From positions 1 through 36,561 of the IMG/VR virus record IMGVR_UViG_3300010233_000104: a stretch of DNA of 36,561 nucleotides, one strand, 5' to 3'. Both the position numbers and the translations under genes were made by a program. A model generated the notes under the pieces. That model saw only the letters and a list, made by a program, of their open reading frames with translations, was not told the origin of the DNA and did no database searches. The stretch is from a virus. How positions within the stretch are numbered: position 1 is the stretch's first letter; every line of letters starts with the position of its first letter. Shown here piece after piece: positions 16,738-26,740 of the stretch.

Positions 16738-19104
16738 ATGACGACCGCTAGAGTATTAAATCCTTCTGTCAATAGAATAACTCTTACAAAAGCTGTTCCT
16801 ATAACTATAGGAACACTAAGGAGTTTGACAGACGTAAATGTTGCTGTTGGTTTAGGTGATCAGTGGACCTTAATTTATGATCAAGCCAATAATCAATTTA
16901 TTTTTGCTCAAAGTTCTATTGGTATTATTGGTACTGTTTTTCAACAAGCCAATGCGGCTTATGTACAAGCCAACACAGCCAATGCTCTTGCTTATCAAGC
17001 CAATGTCAATGCCACTGCTGCCTTTGCACAAGCTAATGCTGCCTATAATGCTGCAAACTCAGCGGCTAGCGTAGCAGGTAATGTTTTTTCTAACATTATC
17101 ATTTCAGGAACAGATTCTAAATTTAATTGGACCATTGCTGGTAATGCTGATATAATAGCTAATGCTACAGCTAACTTGGTTCGTTTCATATCAGGTGTTG
17201 GTATTGAAATTGATACTGATGTGCCAAATAATGCCATTAGGTTTGTTACTGGTGCCTTTGCTCAAGCCAATGCAGCCCAGACCGTTGCCATTGAAGCCTT
17301 TGCTATTGCAAATCAAGCAAACATTTTAGCTGGTGAGGCATTCAACCAAGCTAATACCGCATATAATGAAGCTAATATAATTTTTAATAGTGCCAATGCA
17401 GCTTTTGGTGAGGCCAATTCAGTAAATGCTAATTTAATATTAGCATGGGCTACTGCTAATTTGGGTGCAACAAATGCAGTGGCAGCCTTTGCTCAAGCCA
17501 ATGCAGCCCAGACCGTTGCCATTGAAGCTTTTACGGCAGCCAATTCAGCCAACACTTTAGCTGCCGAAGTATTTGGTGTTGCTAATGGTGCCATTTCAAA
17601 TTTAACTATTGCATGGGGAACAGCCAATGGTGGTTATACTCAAGCCAATAGTGCCCAAACCTTAGCTATAGAAGTTTTTGCGGCTGCAAACCAAGCTAAT
17701 CTTTTAGCAGCCGAAGTTTATAATGTGGTCAATAATGCATTTGGTAAATCTAATGCTTCCTTCAACGTTTATCTAACAGGAACGAACGTTGGATATAATT
17801 GGACACAAACTGGTAATGCATCTATAAATGCAAATGCCACATCTAATCTTTTGAAATTTGTTTCCGGAAATGGAATTGTTCTTTTCACTGATGTTGCAAA
17901 TGATGCAATTTTGTTCACAGATGGTGGTGCCTATGGTTATGCAAATAGTGTTGGTTCCAATTTAACCCTAGCCTGGGGACAAGCCAACAATGCTCAAACT
18001 GTTGCCATAGAGGCATTTACTCAAGCTAATTCTGCCCAAACTGTGGCAATTGAAGCCTTTACTGCTGCCAACTCGGCCAATACTCTTGCAGCAGAAGTGT
18101 TTGGTGTTGCTAATGGTATTGCAACAAACACTGCCTCTGCTTGGAATCAAGCCAATACAGCATACAATGAAGCCAATCTTATATTTGGTGTTTCTAATGC
18201 TGCCTTTGCTCAGGCTAATGCTGCGCAGACCTTAACCATTCAGGTTTATGCTCAATCTAACCTAGAATTTAATGCTATTAATGCTGCCTTTGCTCAGGCT
18301 AATGCTGCAAGATATACTGATAATGCATACGGCAATATAGCCATATCAAATACAGATTCTCATTATACTTGGACACAAGGTGGTAATGTTTATCTTCAAG
18401 CAAACAATACATCCAACACTCTCAATTTAATTTCTGGTGCAGGAATCGTATTATTTGCTGATCCTGTTAATAATGCAATAAGAATCAATTCAACAGCAAC
18501 TGGTACCGGTACTGTTTCAAATGCCTTTGCTAATCTTTATTTTTCCAACACTGATGTTAATTTTAATTGGACTGCTGTTGGCAACATAGGATTTACGGCC
18601 AATGCAACATCTAATGTTCTAGAATTTATTTCAGGTGGTGGCATTGCAATTTATTATGATGCTCAAAATTCTGCCGTAAGAATTAATTCTACTGCTACAG
18701 GAACAGGTACAGGAAGTGCAACCTTATTAATTTCTGATGGACCTCCTGCGGGTCCAAACACATCTAACACTCTTTGGTGGGAATCAAATACAGGTTTCTT
18801 AAAGGTATGGTATGTTGATTCTAATGGAGGTCAATGGGTAGATGCATCACCTAATGGTGGTGCAGCAGCCAACACTCCTTATGCATTTGCCAATATTGAA
18901 TTAACAGGAACCGATTCTGGATATAATTGGACAAAAGCCGGTAATGTTAATATAACTGCCAATTCTACATCCAATCAGGTTCTTTTCGTAGCCGGCTCTG
19001 GCATAGAATTAGATTTGGATGCACCTAATAGTGCCATTCGAATTGTAAGTACAGGTGGTGTTGCTATCAATGATACGATCATAAATAGTTTGATATATGG
19101 ATAA
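16738..19104 (+). CDS. Long tail fiber: coiled-coil heptad arrays alternating with five beta-modules
   Basis: This 788-residue protein has an N-terminal attachment-like domain (residues 1-65, with LTDVNVAVGLGDQWTLIYDQ). Helical heptad arrays at about 67-115, 172-340 and 394-530 are built from units such as AFAQANA/AQTVAIE/AFTAANS/ANTLAAE/VFGVANG, each exactly seven residues. Between and after them lie five copies of a 53-residue beta module, at about residues 117-169, 341-393, 531-583, 597-649 and 717-769. Residues about 660-706 hold a small domain (PPAGPNTSNTLWWESNTGFL ... VDSNGGQWV) common in phage fibers. This is a shaft of trimeric coiled coils broken by beta bulges. It lies where T4 has wac (fibritin) and genes 9-12, so either a whisker-like or a receptor fiber is possible. 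No enzymatic motif is visible. Confidence 0.85.
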   Translation: MTTARVLNPSVNRITLTKAVPITIGTLRSLTDVNVAVGLGDQWTLIYDQANNQFIFAQSSIGIIGTVFQQANAAYVQANTANALAYQANVNATAAFAQANAAYNAANSAASVAGNVFSNIIISGTDSKFNWTIAGNADIIANATANLVRFISGVGIEIDTDVPNNAIRFVTGAFAQANAAQTVAIEAFAIANQANILAGEAFNQANTAYNEANIIFNSANAAFGEANSVNANLILAWATANLGATNAVAAFAQANAAQTVAIEAFTAANSANTLAAEVFGVANGAISNLTIAWGTANGGYTQANSAQTLAIEVFAAANQANLLAAEVYNVVNNAFGKSNASFNVYLTGTNVGYNWTQTGNASINANATSNLLKFVSGNGIVLFTDVANDAILFTDGGAYGYANSVGSNLTLAWGQANNAQTVAIEAFTQANSAQTVAIEAFTAANSANTLAAEVFGVANGIATNTASAWNQANTAYNEANLIFGVSNAAFAQANAAQTLTIQVYAQSNLEFNAINAAFAQANAARYTDNAYGNIAISNTDSHYTWTQGGNVYLQANNTSNTLNLISGAGIVLFADPVNNAIRINSTATGTGTVSNAFANLYFSNTDVNFNWTAVGNIGFTANATSNVLEFISGGGIAIYYDAQNSAVRINSTATGTGTGSATLLISDGPPAGPNTSNTLWWESNTGFLKVWYVDSNGGQWVDASPNGGAAANTPYAFANIELTGTDSGYNWTKAGNVNITANSTSNQVLFVAGSGIELDLDAPNSAIRIVSTGGVAINDTIINSLIYG
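17086..17244 (+). repeat. Fiber beta-module copy 1 in long fiber
   Basis: Encodes FSNIIISGTDSKFNWT through NNAIRF. Same module as at 15589, 17758, 18328, 18526, 18886, 22928, 23381 and 23723. Confidence 0.75.
17254..17297 (+). repeat. 44-base exact direct repeat, copy 1
   Basis: The 44 bases starting GCCTTTGCTCAAGCC and ending TTGAAGC are identical at 17254-17297 and 17485-17528. They code for a heptad pair (AFAQANAAQTVAIEA). The 231-base offset equals 77 codons, or eleven heptads, so recombination between the copies would keep both reading frame and heptad register. Confidence 0.85.
17485..17528 (+). repeat. 44-base exact direct repeat, copy 2
   Basis: Second copy of the repeat at 17254-17297. 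Further, less exact copies of the same heptad coding lie at about 17990-18060 and 18200-18240 and again in the fiber gene at 22808. Confidence 0.85.
17758..17916 (+). repeat. Fiber beta-module copy 2 in long fiber
   Basis: Encodes SFNVYLTGTNVGYNWT through NDAILF, following the shared module pattern with Asn in place of the usual Asp at the TDS position. Confidence 0.7.
18328..18486 (+). repeat. Fiber beta-module copy 3 in long fiber
   Basis: Encodes YGNIAISNTDSHYTWT through NNAIRI; followed by a Thr/Gly linker (STATGTG) that recurs after copy 4. Confidence 0.75.
18526..18684 (+). repeat. Fiber beta-module copy 4 in long fiber
   Basis: Encodes FANLYFSNTDVNFNWT through NSAVRI, with the same STATGTG linker after it as copy 3, suggesting local duplication of module plus linker. 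Confidence 0.75.
18886..19044 (+). repeat. Fiber beta-module copy 5 in long fiber
   Basis: Encodes FANIELTGTDSGYNWT through NSAIRI near the C-terminus. It follows the LWWESNTGFLKVWY domain, the same order seen in the fiber at 22808. Confidence 0.75.
19080..19087 (+). promoter_or_regulatory. Possible late promoter (CATAAATA)
   Basis: This octamer has 7 of 8 matches to the T4 late promoter. It is inside the last codons of the long fiber gene and 26 bases before the ATG at 19114, where AAGGA supplies a ribosome-binding site. The spacing is plausible, but the region is AT-rich and the match could be chance. Confidence 0.25.
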
Positions 19105-20728: not shown

Positions 20729-21364
20729 ATGATAGTACAAGCCCAAGCTGGTCCAGTTGCCACAACCTCTTCTTTACAACCAGGTGCCCAGGCTCCTGTA
20801 AGACTCGGTAATATGGGTGATGTTATAATTTCCGAATTACATGGTAGATATTATGAATCATCTTATCGTAGAGCCTTATTTTTCGGAGCAACACAGGCTG
20901 GCCAAACAACTACAATTGGTGCAGCCTTAACTTATGTTGGTATATGTTTATCTAATCCAGTTGGTTCTCCAGTAAATTTGTGTCTTCAGAAGGTTGGATT
21001 TGCATTCACTGTATTGGCACCTAACGTTGCTGGTATTGGATTGATGACTGGATATAACTCTGGTACTAACGTAACCCATACAGTTGCTTTGGTGCCTAAA
21101 TCTTCCTTTACCGGTATTGGTGCTCTTCCAACCGGTACTATCGATTCTTCTTCAACCTTGCCAACCGCTCCTACATTTACACATCTATTTGGTACATCAT
21201 ATACTGGTGCTCTTACAACAACTACCGTAGTTGGCCCAACAATAGTGGATCTTGAAGGTTCAGTAATTCTTCCTCCTGGCGCATATGCTGCTACCTTTAC
21301 CACTGCTGCATCTGGTGCTGCATCATTCTTCGGAAGTATGGCTTGGGAGGAAATTCCTACCTAA
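20729..21364 (+). CDS. Beta-rich tail protein, paralogue A1 of a tandem pair
   Basis: This 211-residue protein has the pattern GNMGDVIISELHGRYYESSY, then CLSNPVGSPVNLCLQKVGF, GLMTGYNSGTNVTHTV and the ending IVDLEGSVILPPGA ... WEEIPT. The same blocks occur in the gene at 21578, with about half the residues identical by eye. Related beta proteins (HGRYYE start, SNPxGSxxNxxL strand) are common in environmental T4-like and other phages near fibers; no function is established to my knowledge. A strong ribosome-binding site (TTAGGAG) precedes the ATG. The last codons contain GGGAGG, which would serve as ribosome-binding site for the endonuclease remnant that starts one base after its stop. Confidence 0.8.
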   Translation: MIVQAQAGPVATTSSLQPGAQAPVRLGNMGDVIISELHGRYYESSYRRALFFGATQAGQTTTIGAALTYVGICLSNPVGSPVNLCLQKVGFAFTVLAPNVAGIGLMTGYNSGTNVTHTVALVPKSSFTGIGALPTGTIDSSSTLPTAPTFTHLFGTSYTGALTTTTVVGPTIVDLEGSVILPPGAYAATFTTAASGAASFFGSMAWEEIPT

Positions 21365-21365
21365 A

Positions 21366-21584
21366 ATGGCAAAGAAAGGTGTAAAACAATCTCCAGAACA
21401 TATAGCCAAAAGAGTGGCGGCCAATAGAAAATCTGGAGCATATGATATAGCTTCAATTAATTGTAAAGAATTAAGAACAGATATTAATAACGGAAGAACC
21501 TTATGTGAAAATTGTCACAGATTAACTCCAACATGGGGTAATGGTTCTAGAGCCAAAAATTATGGAGAACAAGTAATATGCTAA
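21366..21584 (+). pseudogene. HNH homing endonuclease remnant with internal in-frame deletion
   Basis: I chose the ATG at 21366, giving 72 residues starting MAKKGVKQSPEHIAK. The frame also reads upstream to 21285, but that part is a shadow of the tail gene. Residues 7-35 match the N-terminal NUMOD3-like part of the full endonuclease at 22224 (QSPEHIAKRVAANRKSGAYD). Residues 36-58 match its last HNH segment (LRTDINNGRTLCENCHRLTP). The 114 codons between are missing, including the first Cys pair and the Asp-His that coordinate metal and cut DNA, so it cannot act as an HNH nuclease. The break falls at TAAAGAAT, an 8-base sequence present at both ends of the missing part in the intact copy (22337-22344 and 22679-22686; 342 bases apart). 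Its stop overlaps the next ATG (ATGCTAA). It may still be translated as a small basic protein. Confidence 0.85.
21464..21529 (+). repeat. 66-base identical direct repeat, HNH 3' segment, copy 1
   Basis: Identical to 22679-22744. It begins with the TAAAGAAT microhomology and codes for the final HNH segment with CxxCH. Confidence 0.9.
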
Positions 21585-22222
21585 TTCAAACACAAGTTGG
21601 ACCAATTGCAGTTCTAGCTTCTATTCCTGCAAATATTCAACCACCATTAAGAAGTGGTAATATGGGCGATCTTATAGTTTCCCAACTCCACGGTAGATAT
21701 TATGAAACCAACTACCGTAGAAACATGTTTGTTGCTACATCAAACAATTCTATAGGATCAAACACATCTGCTGGAACATTAACAACTTATTTTGGATTAT
21801 GTGTTTCTAATCCTGTAGGTTCTCCTGTAAATATTGTATTAAATAAAATTAATTTTACTGTTGCCAATGCATTCACAACTGTAACTCCAATTGGTTTAAT
21901 GACTGGTTATAATTCTAGTACAAGCGTAACCCATACTGCTAATGCTTTTGTTAAATCTGCCTTTACCGGTGTTGGAGCAGTAGGTCAAGGTTTAGCTGAT
22001 TGGTCAGCCACCTTATCAGCCACTCCTACTGTAACACATGTGTTTGCCACAGGTTATACGGGGGCCATATCAACAACTCCTCTACCTAGTTCTCCAACAA
22101 TTGTGGATCTTGAAGGTTCAGTAATTCTTCCTCCAGGAGCCTTTGCTGCTATATGGACTCCTACTGCCTTACCATCCTATGCATTATTTGCTGGAATGAG
22201 TTGGGAGGAAATACCTACCTAA
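21578..22222 (+). CDS. Beta-rich tail protein, paralogue A2 of a tandem pair
   Basis: This 214-residue paralogue of the protein at 20729 shares the blocks GNMGDLIVSQLHGRYYETNY, SNPVGSPVN, GLMTGYNS, the TxTH strand, IVDLEGSVILPPGA and the terminal WEEIPT. The middle loops (residues 50-70 and 130-160) differ most, as expected for surface loops under host-driven change. The DNA is nearly identical only near the 3' end (32 bases, GTGGATCTTGAAGG onward). The ATG overlaps the stop of the endonuclease remnant by 7 bases (ATGCTAA). Like A1, its final codons carry GGGAGG, which can serve the following HNH gene. The function is unknown; it is probably a receptor-contact or decoration protein. Confidence 0.8.
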   Translation: MLIQTQVGPIAVLASIPANIQPPLRSGNMGDLIVSQLHGRYYETNYRRNMFVATSNNSIGSNTSAGTLTTYFGLCVSNPVGSPVNIVLNKINFTVANAFTTVTPIGLMTGYNSSTSVTHTANAFVKSAFTGVGAVGQGLADWSATLSATPTVTHVFATGYTGAISTTPLPSSPTIVDLEGSVILPPGAFAAIWTPTALPSYALFAGMSWEEIPT

Positions 22223-22223
22223 A

Positions 22224-22799
22224 ATGGTAAACCTAAAACACTCTCTAAAAGGAAAAAAACAATCTCCAGAACACATAGCCAAAAGAGTGGCAGCCAATAG
22301 AAAATCTGGAGCATATGATAAAGCTTCTATTAGGTGTAAAGAATGGAATAAAAGTTTAATAGGTTCTAAGATATCTGAGGAAACAAAATTTAAAATTTCC
22401 AAATCTATGAAAGGAAAACAAAATTCTTTAGGAGTTAAACGTTCTGTAGAATTTAGACAAAAGCTTTCTCATTATTATAAAACTAATCCTGAAAAACATA
22501 ATCATTATATAGATGGTAAAGGACATGAAAGAGTAACAGCTAGATTAACTCACATGGGAACTTTAGAATATAGATTATGGAGAGAGCAAGTTTTTGAAAG
22601 AGATAATTATACTTGCCAAATGTGTGGTGAACGTGGTGGCAAATTAAATGCGGATCACATTAAACCATACAATTTATTTAAAGAATTAAGAACAGATATT
22701 AATAACGGAAGAACCTTATGTGAAAATTGTCACAGATTAACTCCCACATGGGGTGGTCGAGTAAATAAAATATCCCCACCAACCCTTATTAATATATAA
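22224..22799 (+). CDS. HNH homing endonuclease with NUMOD3 repeats, intact copy
   Basis: This 191-residue protein has three parts. NUMOD3-type DNA-binding repeats lie at residues 9-38 (KGKKQSPEHIAKRVAANRKS) and 42-82 (GSKISEETKFKISKSMKGKQ). A linker follows. The HNH domain spans about residues 114-177: YRLWREQVFERDNYTCQMCG, C131/C134, the D144-H145 pair in NADHIKPY, and C166/C169-H170 in LCENCHRL. These are the two zinc knuckles and the catalytic His expected of the ββα-metal fold. Such enzymes in T4-like phages cut unoccupied alleles and spread their own gene. It starts one base after the A2 tail gene stop, with a ribosome-binding site inside that gene. It is a free-standing gene; no intron or intein is visible. 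Confidence 0.9.
   Translation: MVNLKHSLKGKKQSPEHIAKRVAANRKSGAYDKASIRCKEWNKSLIGSKISEETKFKISKSMKGKQNSLGVKRSVEFRQKLSHYYKTNPEKHNHYIDGKGHERVTARLTHMGTLEYRLWREQVFERDNYTCQMCGERGGKLNADHIKPYNLFKELRTDINNGRTLCENCHRLTPTWGGRVNKISPPTLINI
22679..22744 (+). repeat. 66-base identical direct repeat, HNH 3' segment, copy 2
   Basis: Identical to 21464-21529. The first 8 bases, TAAAGAAT, also occur at 22337-22344 in the same gene and mark the deletion endpoints of the remnant copy. Confidence 0.9.
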
Positions 22800-22807
22800 G
22801 GTAGGCC

Positions 22808-24238
22808 ATGGCTATTAATTTTCCAGCAAATCCTTCAATAGGACAACAATATTCTTTTGGTCCAGTAACATGGACCTGGAATGGTCTATCATGGGTTGGA
22901 CAAAATAGTGCCATCCTAGCTAATTCATTTTCAAATGTATTCATAACTGCCACCGATTCAAATTATTCTTGGTTACAGGCTGGTAATAATTATATCCATG
23001 CAAATGCGTCCGCTAATATATTAAATGTGATTGGTGGTTCCGGTATAACTTTATATGGTGATAATTCTAACAATGCAATCAGAATTACAGATTCTGGAGC
23101 ATTCAATGCTGCAAACCAAGCTAATATATTAGCCGCAGAAGCCTTTACGGCTGCTAACTCTGCAAACATATTGGCTGCTGAGGTATTTGGTGTAGCTAAT
23201 AGTACCCAATCAAATTTAATCATTGCATGGGGAACAGCCAATGGTGGATATACCCAAGCCAATGCTGCCCAAACGGTTGCCATTGAAGCCTTCACGGCTG
23301 CCAACCAAGCAAATATATTGGCTGCTGAAGTTTTTGGTGTTGCTAATTCAGCTTTCTTGAAAGCTAATAATGCAAATGCATTTGTTAATGTTTTTACAAC
23401 CAACACTGATTCAGGATATACATGGACCGCCGCTGGAAATGGATCTGCCTTAGCTAATAATTCATCAAACGTCTTACATTTAATTTCCGGATCTGGAATT
23501 AATCTTTATTTTGACTCAATAAATAATGCAATAAGAATTAATGCATCTGGTGGTGGAACTAGCACCGGTGCCACTATTGTTATGCAAGATTCGGCACCTA
23601 GTTCCGGTAACACCCCCAATTCTACTCTTTGGTGGCAATCAAATACAGGCATTTTAAAAGTTTATTATAATGATGGAAACAATTCTTATTTCGTAGATGC
23701 TACTGCATTACCTGAACCTGGTTTTGGAAATATATCCTTATCTAGGACAGATTCAGGATATAATTGGGCTACCTCATCAAATACAGTAATTTGGGCCAAT
23801 GGCGTATCAAATTCTGTAACTTTTGTTGGCGGTGCTGGTGTTCAAATAGGATCAGATGCTCCTAACAATGCAGTAAGATTTTATACGGGTGGAATGGTTG
23901 CATCTTTATTTTATGATAATATAAATCCAGGACCTCAATCATTCTTTATTGCTCCTATTCCTTTAACTGTTCTTTCTATATCATGTCGAGTTGATGCGGC
24001 TGCATTATCCGCAGCAACAATGAATGTGGTGAAGGCTGCAAATGGTACATCAATTGCTTCTGGTAGTGCTATTCATTCTGGTTCATTTTTTGCAAATGGT
24101 ACAACAGCCACAGTACAAATTTTGACATTAGTTACAGCCAATTGTACTCTAAATGCAGGAGATGCATTAGGAGTTATAACATCAGGAACATTAACTGCAT
24201 CTAATGGTTCTATCATAATTCAATTACAGGCAACATAA
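22808..24238 (+). CDS. Tail fiber sharing modules with the long fiber
   Basis: This 476-residue protein begins with a short attachment-like domain (INFPANPSIGQQYSFGPVTW, then WNGLSWVGQ) that is also present at the start of the gene at 24241. It holds three copies of the 53-residue beta module (residues 41-93, 192-244, 306-358), one heptad helical array at about 96-190 (EAFTAANSANILAAEVFGVA), and an LWWQSNTGILKVYY domain at about 260-300. The C-terminal about 110 residues form a different beta domain (FYDNINPGPQSFFIAPIPLT, then NAGDALGVITSGTLT), a type I associate with phage fiber tips. It reads as a shorter relative of the 788-residue fiber at 16738, with a 26-base identical DNA stretch shared (17608-17633 and 23222-23247). 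The likely role is receptor or glycan contact. Confidence 0.82.
   Translation: MAINFPANPSIGQQYSFGPVTWTWNGLSWVGQNSAILANSFSNVFITATDSNYSWLQAGNNYIHANASANILNVIGGSGITLYGDNSNNAIRITDSGAFNAANQANILAAEAFTAANSANILAAEVFGVANSTQSNLIIAWGTANGGYTQANAAQTVAIEAFTAANQANILAAEVFGVANSAFLKANNANAFVNVFTTNTDSGYTWTAAGNGSALANNSSNVLHLISGSGINLYFDSINNAIRINASGGGTSTGATIVMQDSAPSSGNTPNSTLWWQSNTGILKVYYNDGNNSYFVDATALPEPGFGNISLSRTDSGYNWATSSNTVIWANGVSNSVTFVGGAGVQIGSDAPNNAVRFYTGGMVASLFYDNINPGPQSFFIAPIPLTVLSISCRVDAAALSAATMNVVKAANGTSIASGSAIHSGSFFANGTTATVQILTLVTANCTLNAGDALGVITSGTLTASNGSIIIQLQAT
22928..23086 (+). repeat. Fiber beta-module copy 1 in second fiber
   Basis: Encodes FSNVFITATDSNYSWL through NNAIRI; same module family as in the fibers at 15085 and 16738. 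Confidence 0.75.
23381..23539 (+). repeat. Fiber beta-module copy 2 in second fiber
   Basis: Encodes FVNVFTTNTDSGYTWT through NNAIRI; follows the heptad helical array of this fiber. Confidence 0.75.
23723..23881 (+). repeat. Fiber beta-module copy 3 in second fiber
   Basis: Encodes FGNISLSRTDSGYNWA through NNAVRF; follows the LWWQSNTGILKVYY domain, the same order as in the long fiber's last copy. Confidence 0.75.
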
Positions 24239-24240
24239 AA

Positions 24241-25176
24241 ATGGGATCTATTCATTTTCCTTCAAATCCTAGAGCAAATAATGTTTATACCTTGAATGGT
24301 CAAGTTTGGTGGTACGATGGCATGTCCTGGAATGCTATAGATAGAGGTTTAGCTAATCCATGTCCTCTTGATAGTCTAACTGCTAAAGCAAATGTTGCTT
24401 ATGGATGTAGACAATTATATAAATCCTATACCGGACCTATAGTTCAATTACGTAGAGCATCTGATGGTGTAACTACAATATTTAATGTTCAAAATAACCT
24501 ACATGCAAATATAGCTTCCTTCCTTACTGGAACCACAGGTTGGGTTGTTGTTTGGTATGATCAGTCAGGAGCAGGATTAAATGCTATCCAATCTGTCCCG
24601 GGACAACAACCTGGATGGAATATATCCTGTCAAAATGGACAATCAGCATTAGATTTTCCTTATGCTAATTCACCCGGTTTAATAGCTAACACATCTTCCT
24701 CCTTATATTCAGCAAATAGTAATTTTACAATGTATGTATCTACCTCTTCTTGGGCTAATCAAGCATCATATCCCACTTTATTAGGTATGGGAGGTTCAAG
24801 TCAAGGATGGGTTTTGCAAGATACTACATCCGGTTCAAATACATTTACTTTTTATTCATCAACATATGGTGGAACATTATCAGGTGTCACCACATTAAAT
24901 GATAATAAATGGCGCACTTTCTTAGTTACCTCAAATGTAATAACCGCCGCCGTTAATATATATGCGGAAAATGCATTATCTGGATCATCATTTAATGGAG
25001 GAGGATTAGTAATACCTAATACTGGATTATATATAGGACCTTATAATTATGGAGATCCTTGGGGTGGATCTATAGGAGAATTTGCCTATTTCATAGGTAA
25101 TACAGCCAATCCATTATCATCAACTGATCTAAGTACCATTTATAGTTCATCATTATTTTATTGGGGAGCCAATTAA
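24241..25176 (+). CDS. Fiber-tip protein with arabinofuranosidase-B-like jelly roll
   Basis: This 311-residue protein has an N-terminal about 35-residue attachment domain (IHFPSNPRANNVYTLNGQVW, then WYDGMSWNA) like that of the preceding fiber. Residues about 45-311 show the pattern of the arabinofuranosidase-B catalytic-type fold (GH54, concanavalin-like): AYGCRQLYKSYTGPIVQLRR, ASDGVTT, a WVVVWYDQSGAGLNAIQ strand, QPGWN, ALDFPYANSPGL, and a final GSIGEFAYFIG strand. In known enzymes this fold cuts arabinan side chains; in phages it is common as a virion domain, and whether it cuts or only binds cannot be judged here because I cannot place the catalytic acids. It is probably a glycan-contact tip protein. 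Its stop overlaps the gp13 start by one base (TAATG). Confidence 0.78.
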   Translation: MGSIHFPSNPRANNVYTLNGQVWWYDGMSWNAIDRGLANPCPLDSLTAKANVAYGCRQLYKSYTGPIVQLRRASDGVTTIFNVQNNLHANIASFLTGTTGWVVVWYDQSGAGLNAIQSVPGQQPGWNISCQNGQSALDFPYANSPGLIANTSSSLYSANSNFTMYVSTSSWANQASYPTLLGMGGSSQGWVLQDTTSGSNTFTFYSSTYGGTLSGVTTLNDNKWRTFLVTSNVITAAVNIYAENALSGSSFNGGGLVIPNTGLYIGPYNYGDPWGGSIGEFAYFIGNTANPLSSTDLSTIYSSSLFYWGAN

Positions 25177-26138: not shown

Positions 26139-26167
26139 ATCTTGCATTGAAAGAAAGATTTACAATT

Positions 26168-26740
26168 ATGACGATATATCATAATCACCATATTATACCC
26201 AAACATATTGGAGGCTCAAATGATTCTTCCAACATTAAGAAATTGACTATTAGACAACATGCCTTGGCTCATAAAAAATTGTTTGAAGAACATGGTAGAT
26301 GGCAAGATAAAGAAGCTTGGTTATCTTTGTCCGGACAAATAACATGTGCTGAAGCTATTAAAAGAGCACAAATATTATCCAATAAAACTAGAATCATATC
26401 TGATGAAACTAAAATAAAAATGTCATTGAGTCATAAAGGTAAACCTTCTGCTATGAAAGGAAAACACCACACTCAAAAATCTAAAGAAATGATATCATTA
26501 GCAAAAAAAGGTAAACAACAAAAAGAATCTACGAAAAAATTATGGAGTATTAACAGAACAAAAAAATTTAAAGAAGGTATAATGTTTGTTCCTACATTTA
26601 CTGGTAGGAAACATAGTGAAAATCATAAACATAAAATGAGTTTACTTATGTCTGGTAGAAAATTATCAGAAGAAACAAAATTAAAGATTAGTTTGGCAAA
26701 AAGAAAGAAAGCACAACATGTCAACCAATCCATTCTTTAA
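26168..26740 (+). CDS. HNH homing endonuclease with NUMOD3 repeats, inserted between gp13 and gp14
   Basis: I chose the ATG at 26168 (190 residues, MTIYHNHHIIPKHIGGSNDS). A TTG at 26147 would add seven residues. The N-terminus is a compact HNH core: HNHHIIPKHIGG, SNIKKLTIRQHALAHKKLFE, then EEHGRWQDKEAW. The rest holds three or four NUMOD3 repeats (ISDETKIKMSLSHKGKPSAM, HTQKSKEMISLAKKG, FTGRKHSENHKHKMS, LSEETKLKISLAKRKK), which bind DNA. It is strongly Lys-rich and more AT-rich than its neighbours. It is unrelated in architecture to the HNH at 22224, where the HNH is C-terminal. A GAAAGAAAGA sequence precedes the ATG. Its last 23 bases overlap the start of gp14, so it also carries gp14's ribosome-binding region. 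Confidence 0.9.
   Translation: MTIYHNHHIIPKHIGGSNDSSNIKKLTIRQHALAHKKLFEEHGRWQDKEAWLSLSGQITCAEAIKRAQILSNKTRIISDETKIKMSLSHKGKPSAMKGKHHTQKSKEMISLAKKGKQQKESTKKLWSINRTKKFKEGIMFVPTFTGRKHSENHKHKMSLLMSGRKLSEETKLKISLAKRKKAQHVNQSIL

Follow-up and report, generated by a model that had tools for sequence, protein, structure and literature searches.

What history leaves two diverged copies of a predicted virion protein gene side by side, each followed at once by nearly identical endonuclease DNA? The question is raised by two units, composed of genes here termed t and h, in an uncultured T4-like virus. The window, that is, the whole stretch of DNA analysed, is the entire IMG/VR record IMGVR_UViG_3300010233_000104 (36,561 bp) and holds a T4-like myovirus structural module. 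Upstream of the t-h region lie, in order, genes for a gp5-type lysozyme hub, gp25, baseplate wedges, and fibres. Downstream of it are gp13 (25161) and gp14 (26718), and the window further holds genes for the sheath stabiliser (27624), terminase (28689 and 29290), sheath (31113), tube (33072), and portal (33713).

Layout of the tandem units and the predicted t protein

As the initial annotation had described, there are two consecutive units, t1-h1 and t2-h2, all four frames being on the plus strand. The t1 gene (20729-21364, 211 aa) is followed by h1 (21366-21584, 72 aa), t2 (21578-22222, 214 aa), and h2 (22224-22799, 191 aa). Both tail-type genes indeed end in WEEIPT, followed by one spacer base and an HNH frame, such that h directly adjoins the t stop codon in each unit. 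The t proteins are 54% identical, which bears out the original estimate of about half their residues. Two direct repeats of h (D5 and D6) flank t2: the 5' repeat pairs 21375-21471 with 22248-22344 (97 nt, 91% identical, spacing 873), and the 3' repeat pairs 21464-21539 with 22679-22754 (76 nt, 99% identical, spacing 1215). The similarity between the regions upstream of t1 and t2 does not exceed that of shuffled sequences (p 0.295), and hence no duplicated upstream region was detected. Predicted promoters and terminators in the t-h region are likewise no more numerous than in shuffles. A group I intron at the locus was rejected, as no Rfam intron match was found anywhere in the window. The region is itself flanked by two fibre-like genes that have in common a 231-nt direct repeat (17524-17754 and 23138-23368, 77% identical), recombination between which could remove the whole of it. 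A gene further along (24241-25176, plus strand) encodes a product with a Pfam match (4e-8) to part of the catalytic domain of alpha-L-arabinofuranosidase B and also a PHROG virion-protein match; this is possibly a lectin-like virion protein.

AlphaFold2 models t as a beta sandwich (mean pLDDT 80) whose N-terminus is poorly predicted. Foldseek searches with this model returned low E-values only to uncharacterised viral proteins in BFVD; no PDB match had an E-value under 1e-3. In VIA-align the turret of HFTV1 ranked highest (Z 8.6 over 107 residues, 2.7 A), and many C1q/TNF-type folds came next with Z about 6. Values of such size can reflect a common arrangement only. The t product is thus a predicted C1q/TNF-type jelly roll, and it may plausibly be an oligomer exposed on the virion surface. 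Its likeness to other C1q/TNF-type jelly-roll virion proteins, such as the HFTV1 turret, lies in the predicted fold only.

A full-length endonuclease gene and its deleted copy

The h2 product matches the HNH family PF01844 with 39.9 bits (gathering score 21.4), displays the expected motif residues (CQMC at 131, DH at 144, NN at 160, and CENCH at 166), and carries a NUMOD3 motif by Pfam match. The gene is intergenic, starting 1 nt past the t2 stop codon, and lies outside any group I intron or intein. On these features, h2 is predicted to be a free-standing HNH/NUMOD3 homing-type endonuclease gene. Its distribution is patchy. Profile scans for t recovered 83 other loci, comprising 80 from IMG/VR and 3 contigs from metagenome-assembled bacterial genomes, and relatives with t alone, which the initial annotation had suggested looking for, are the rule: an HNH-type gene directly behind t is seen at none of the 83. 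Weak endonuclease matches at a few of these loci are all more than 1 kb from t, and relatives of h2 elsewhere in 15 t-bearing records are weak matches only. Alleles without h include those of two T4-like relatives, L054 and L055, which have several matching structural neighbour genes and a single t; because the downstream genes differ in the relatives, no exact empty site can be defined. Two exact pattern scans of IMG/VR found no close relative carrying this h DNA, and tblastn found no match to t in GenBank phages. The window has a second free-standing HNH/NUMOD3 homing-type gene (26147-26740, plus strand), between gp13 and gp14. This gene is absent in L054 and in the relative L081, in which there is almost no gap at that position, and in the relative L057 homing-type genes occupy the gp13-gp14 and gp14-gp15 gaps alike.

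The initial annotation had assigned each unit its own HNH endonuclease, which does not hold for the first: h1 is a 72-residue, internally deleted remnant that has lost the catalytic core. Relative to h2 it lacks a stretch of exactly 342 bp, or 114 whole codons, which leaves the frame unchanged. This segment lies between two 8-bp direct repeats, TAAAGAAT, at 22337-22344 on its left and, 342 bp away, at 22679-22686 on its right, and a single copy of TAAAGAAT is left at the junction in h1 (21464-21471), all on the plus strand. Among pairs of h2 breakpoints separated by 100 bp or more, 0.04% have junction homology of at least 8 bp. When h1 is aligned to h2 without 22337-22678, near identity extends across the whole shared part. 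The two near-identical HNH blocks noted at the outset are both real, but what had been missed is that they are the two sides of one deletion: they adjoin in unit 1, whereas unit 2 has a further 342 bp between them. The deletion takes from h1 the first, catalytic half of the HNH domain, including the first CxxC pair and the histidine of DH. This histidine acts as the general base in HNH enzymes. Because both elements fall in the deleted part, the h1 product should be inactive. The full catalytic motif is absent from h1, which scores 18.3 bits against PF01844, under the gathering score. Its C-terminus past TPTWG also differs from that of h2, the DNA homology ceasing at 21539, before the h1 stop codon.

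Relative ages of the copies and the order of events

The two genes of the units differ sharply in their divergence. Over the codons that both h copies retain, 155 of 165 nt are identical, as against 407 of 636 nt in t (64% of the aligned DNA; Fisher p 1e-16), the h comparison being a small sample of 165 nt only. Where the amino acid is the same, the codon is identical in 47 of 52 cases for h and in 75 of 115 for t (p 6e-4). With Met and Trp left out, 46 identical codons were observed in h where codon usage would predict 27.5, and 69 in t where it would predict 52.1. Given that h is so much less diverged than t, a plain old duplication of both genes is unlikely. By these counts, and as originally proposed, the h copies are judged to be younger than the split of t1 and t2 or to have been homogenised later. 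The similarity of h could also come from constraint before the decay of h1, or from gene conversion, and selection may have added to the divergence of t.

The 3' region of t1 (21236-21309, plus strand; 84% identical to 22094-22167) includes a block of 32 identical bases upstream of WEEIPT, which is present in both t1 and t2. The initial annotation had suggested that the endonuclease cut near this block, and it was weighed as a possible trace of co-conversion with h. It codes for VDLEGSVILPP, a motif kept across the t family, and a run as long as this arises in 3.4% of same-amino-acid codon shuffles (p 0.034), making it only mildly unusual. The segment shared next to h takes in the last 24 nt of t, of which 21 are identical between the copies. 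The 45 nt separating the 32-base block from this shared end match at just 22 positions (49%), and there is thus no single continuous converted tract. The case for co-conversion through the 32-base block is accordingly weak, and it was set aside on account of this gap and the shuffling result.

The t family offers a view of the same locus from the side of the virion gene. In the contig L161 (831-2208) there is an independent tandem t pair with no HNH gene, the spacers being of hairpin type with a similar hairpin behind each copy; t therefore duplicates without this endonuclease too. Two further contigs have two t genes each, far apart. In a 67-row whole-gene tree t1 and t2 are sisters (98/86), a relation also supported by the C-terminal half (92/89). 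It is not recovered with residues 1-165 or 1-100, although the N-terminal 100 residues do not reject it (AU p 0.32). In ranks of local identity, t2 is far from t1 over the first 60 residues and nearest to it at 151-190. A clear sister relation thus fails as proof of a local duplication, and two readings both fit the trees: a local duplication whose copies diverged rapidly at the 5' end, and the union of two phage lineages.

Taking these observations together, we consider it probable that h recently came to lie behind both t copies, by homing-type recombination between the paralogues or between related phages both carrying t-h, and that the redundant first copy, h1, then decayed by slippage or illegitimate recombination. 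As the near-identical h repeats flank t2, homologous recombination between the two could delete this gene or raise its copy number. An unlikely alternative, weighed against this, holds that the whole t-h unit was duplicated in tandem long ago, that repeated gene conversion kept h and the end of t alike, and that the 342-bp deletion in h1 came late. The sister relation in the full-length tree, the inclusion of the last 24 nt of t in the shared segment, and the occurrence of a tandem t duplication in L161 would all agree with such a history, but conversion would have had to affect h and leave nearly all of t untouched, including the poorly matching 45 nt just upstream.

We give a similarly low probability to an amplification like that mediated by SegB, in which an HNH cut near t-h set off non-allelic recombination that made the array and altered the end of h1 at the junction, the internal deletion following later; the partners may have been two phages infecting one cell and bearing different alleles of t. 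The end of the h1 homology ahead of its stop codon, the failure of the N-terminal t trees to join t1 and t2, and the resemblance to T6, where tandem gene-endonuclease units have an altered 3' end in the upstream endonuclease, speak for it. However, the t copies are strongly diverged, the array is known from one assembled record, the sequence upstream of t2 has no significant similarity to that upstream of t1, and SegB is a GIY-YIG rather than an HNH enzyme. The broader proposition that an HNH homing endonuclease drives a surface virion gene both to amplify in tandem and to diverge, in the form of an expandable cassette whose copies diverge and whose pairing is fixed by decay of the upstream endonuclease, strikes us as rather improbable. 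It is very improbable that h1 has been kept as a short DNA-binding protein, for instance to regulate h2 or to prevent further homing. Its 72-codon frame is intact after an in-frame deletion and a NUMOD-like N-terminus remains, but a deletion has a one-in-three chance of keeping the frame, the deleted part is where h2 has its Pfam NUMOD3 match, and only half a zinc site is left.

Parallels in other phages

Were amplification driven by an HNH enzyme to be true, it would extend the SegB-type process to HNH enzymes and structural genes. The transfer of flanking markers from phage to phage is a known effect of free-standing homing endonucleases, and gene amplification has recently been demonstrated for one of them, SegB. 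In the t-h locus an HNH gene occurs naturally together with a dead copy of itself and two genes that have diverged from each other, which makes the order of events and the dependence on the endonuclease testable. For the most part, the locus appears to be a familiar case of a selfish gene that spreads and then decays, and it may in addition be linked to amplification.

The parallels with T6 SegB, Skunavirus, and the T4 endonucleases place it as a new example of known processes. The MobA-E enzymes of T4 are free-standing HNH homing endonucleases that are intergenic and patchy among T4-like relatives, and co-conversion of flanks is established for the T4 endonucleases (PMC2988022). Like them, h2 is an intergenic, free-standing, and patchily distributed HNH gene of a T4-like phage; unlike them, it sits behind a predicted virion jelly-roll gene, and its homing role is a prediction. 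In lactococcal Skunavirus, 56 of 268 HNH genes are incomplete and have been read as partially deleted remnants, which resemble h1 in this respect; in the part of that account available to us, no mention is made of such genes standing in tandem with two copies of a virion gene, as in t-h (PMC12724721). The amplification by SegB in phage T6 generates tandem units of gene and endonuclease with an end-truncated upstream copy, needs the nuclease together with UvsX/UvsY, and collapses without selection, and its authors left open whether HNH enzymes amplify likewise (PMC13096335). Tandem repeat units holding a gene and an endonuclease are found in t-h as well, along with an upstream endonuclease of altered end and direct repeats allowing expansion or collapse. 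However, SegB is associated with near-identical and unstable units, whereas the t-h array, observed once, combines an HNH gene with t copies that have diverged to about half identity.
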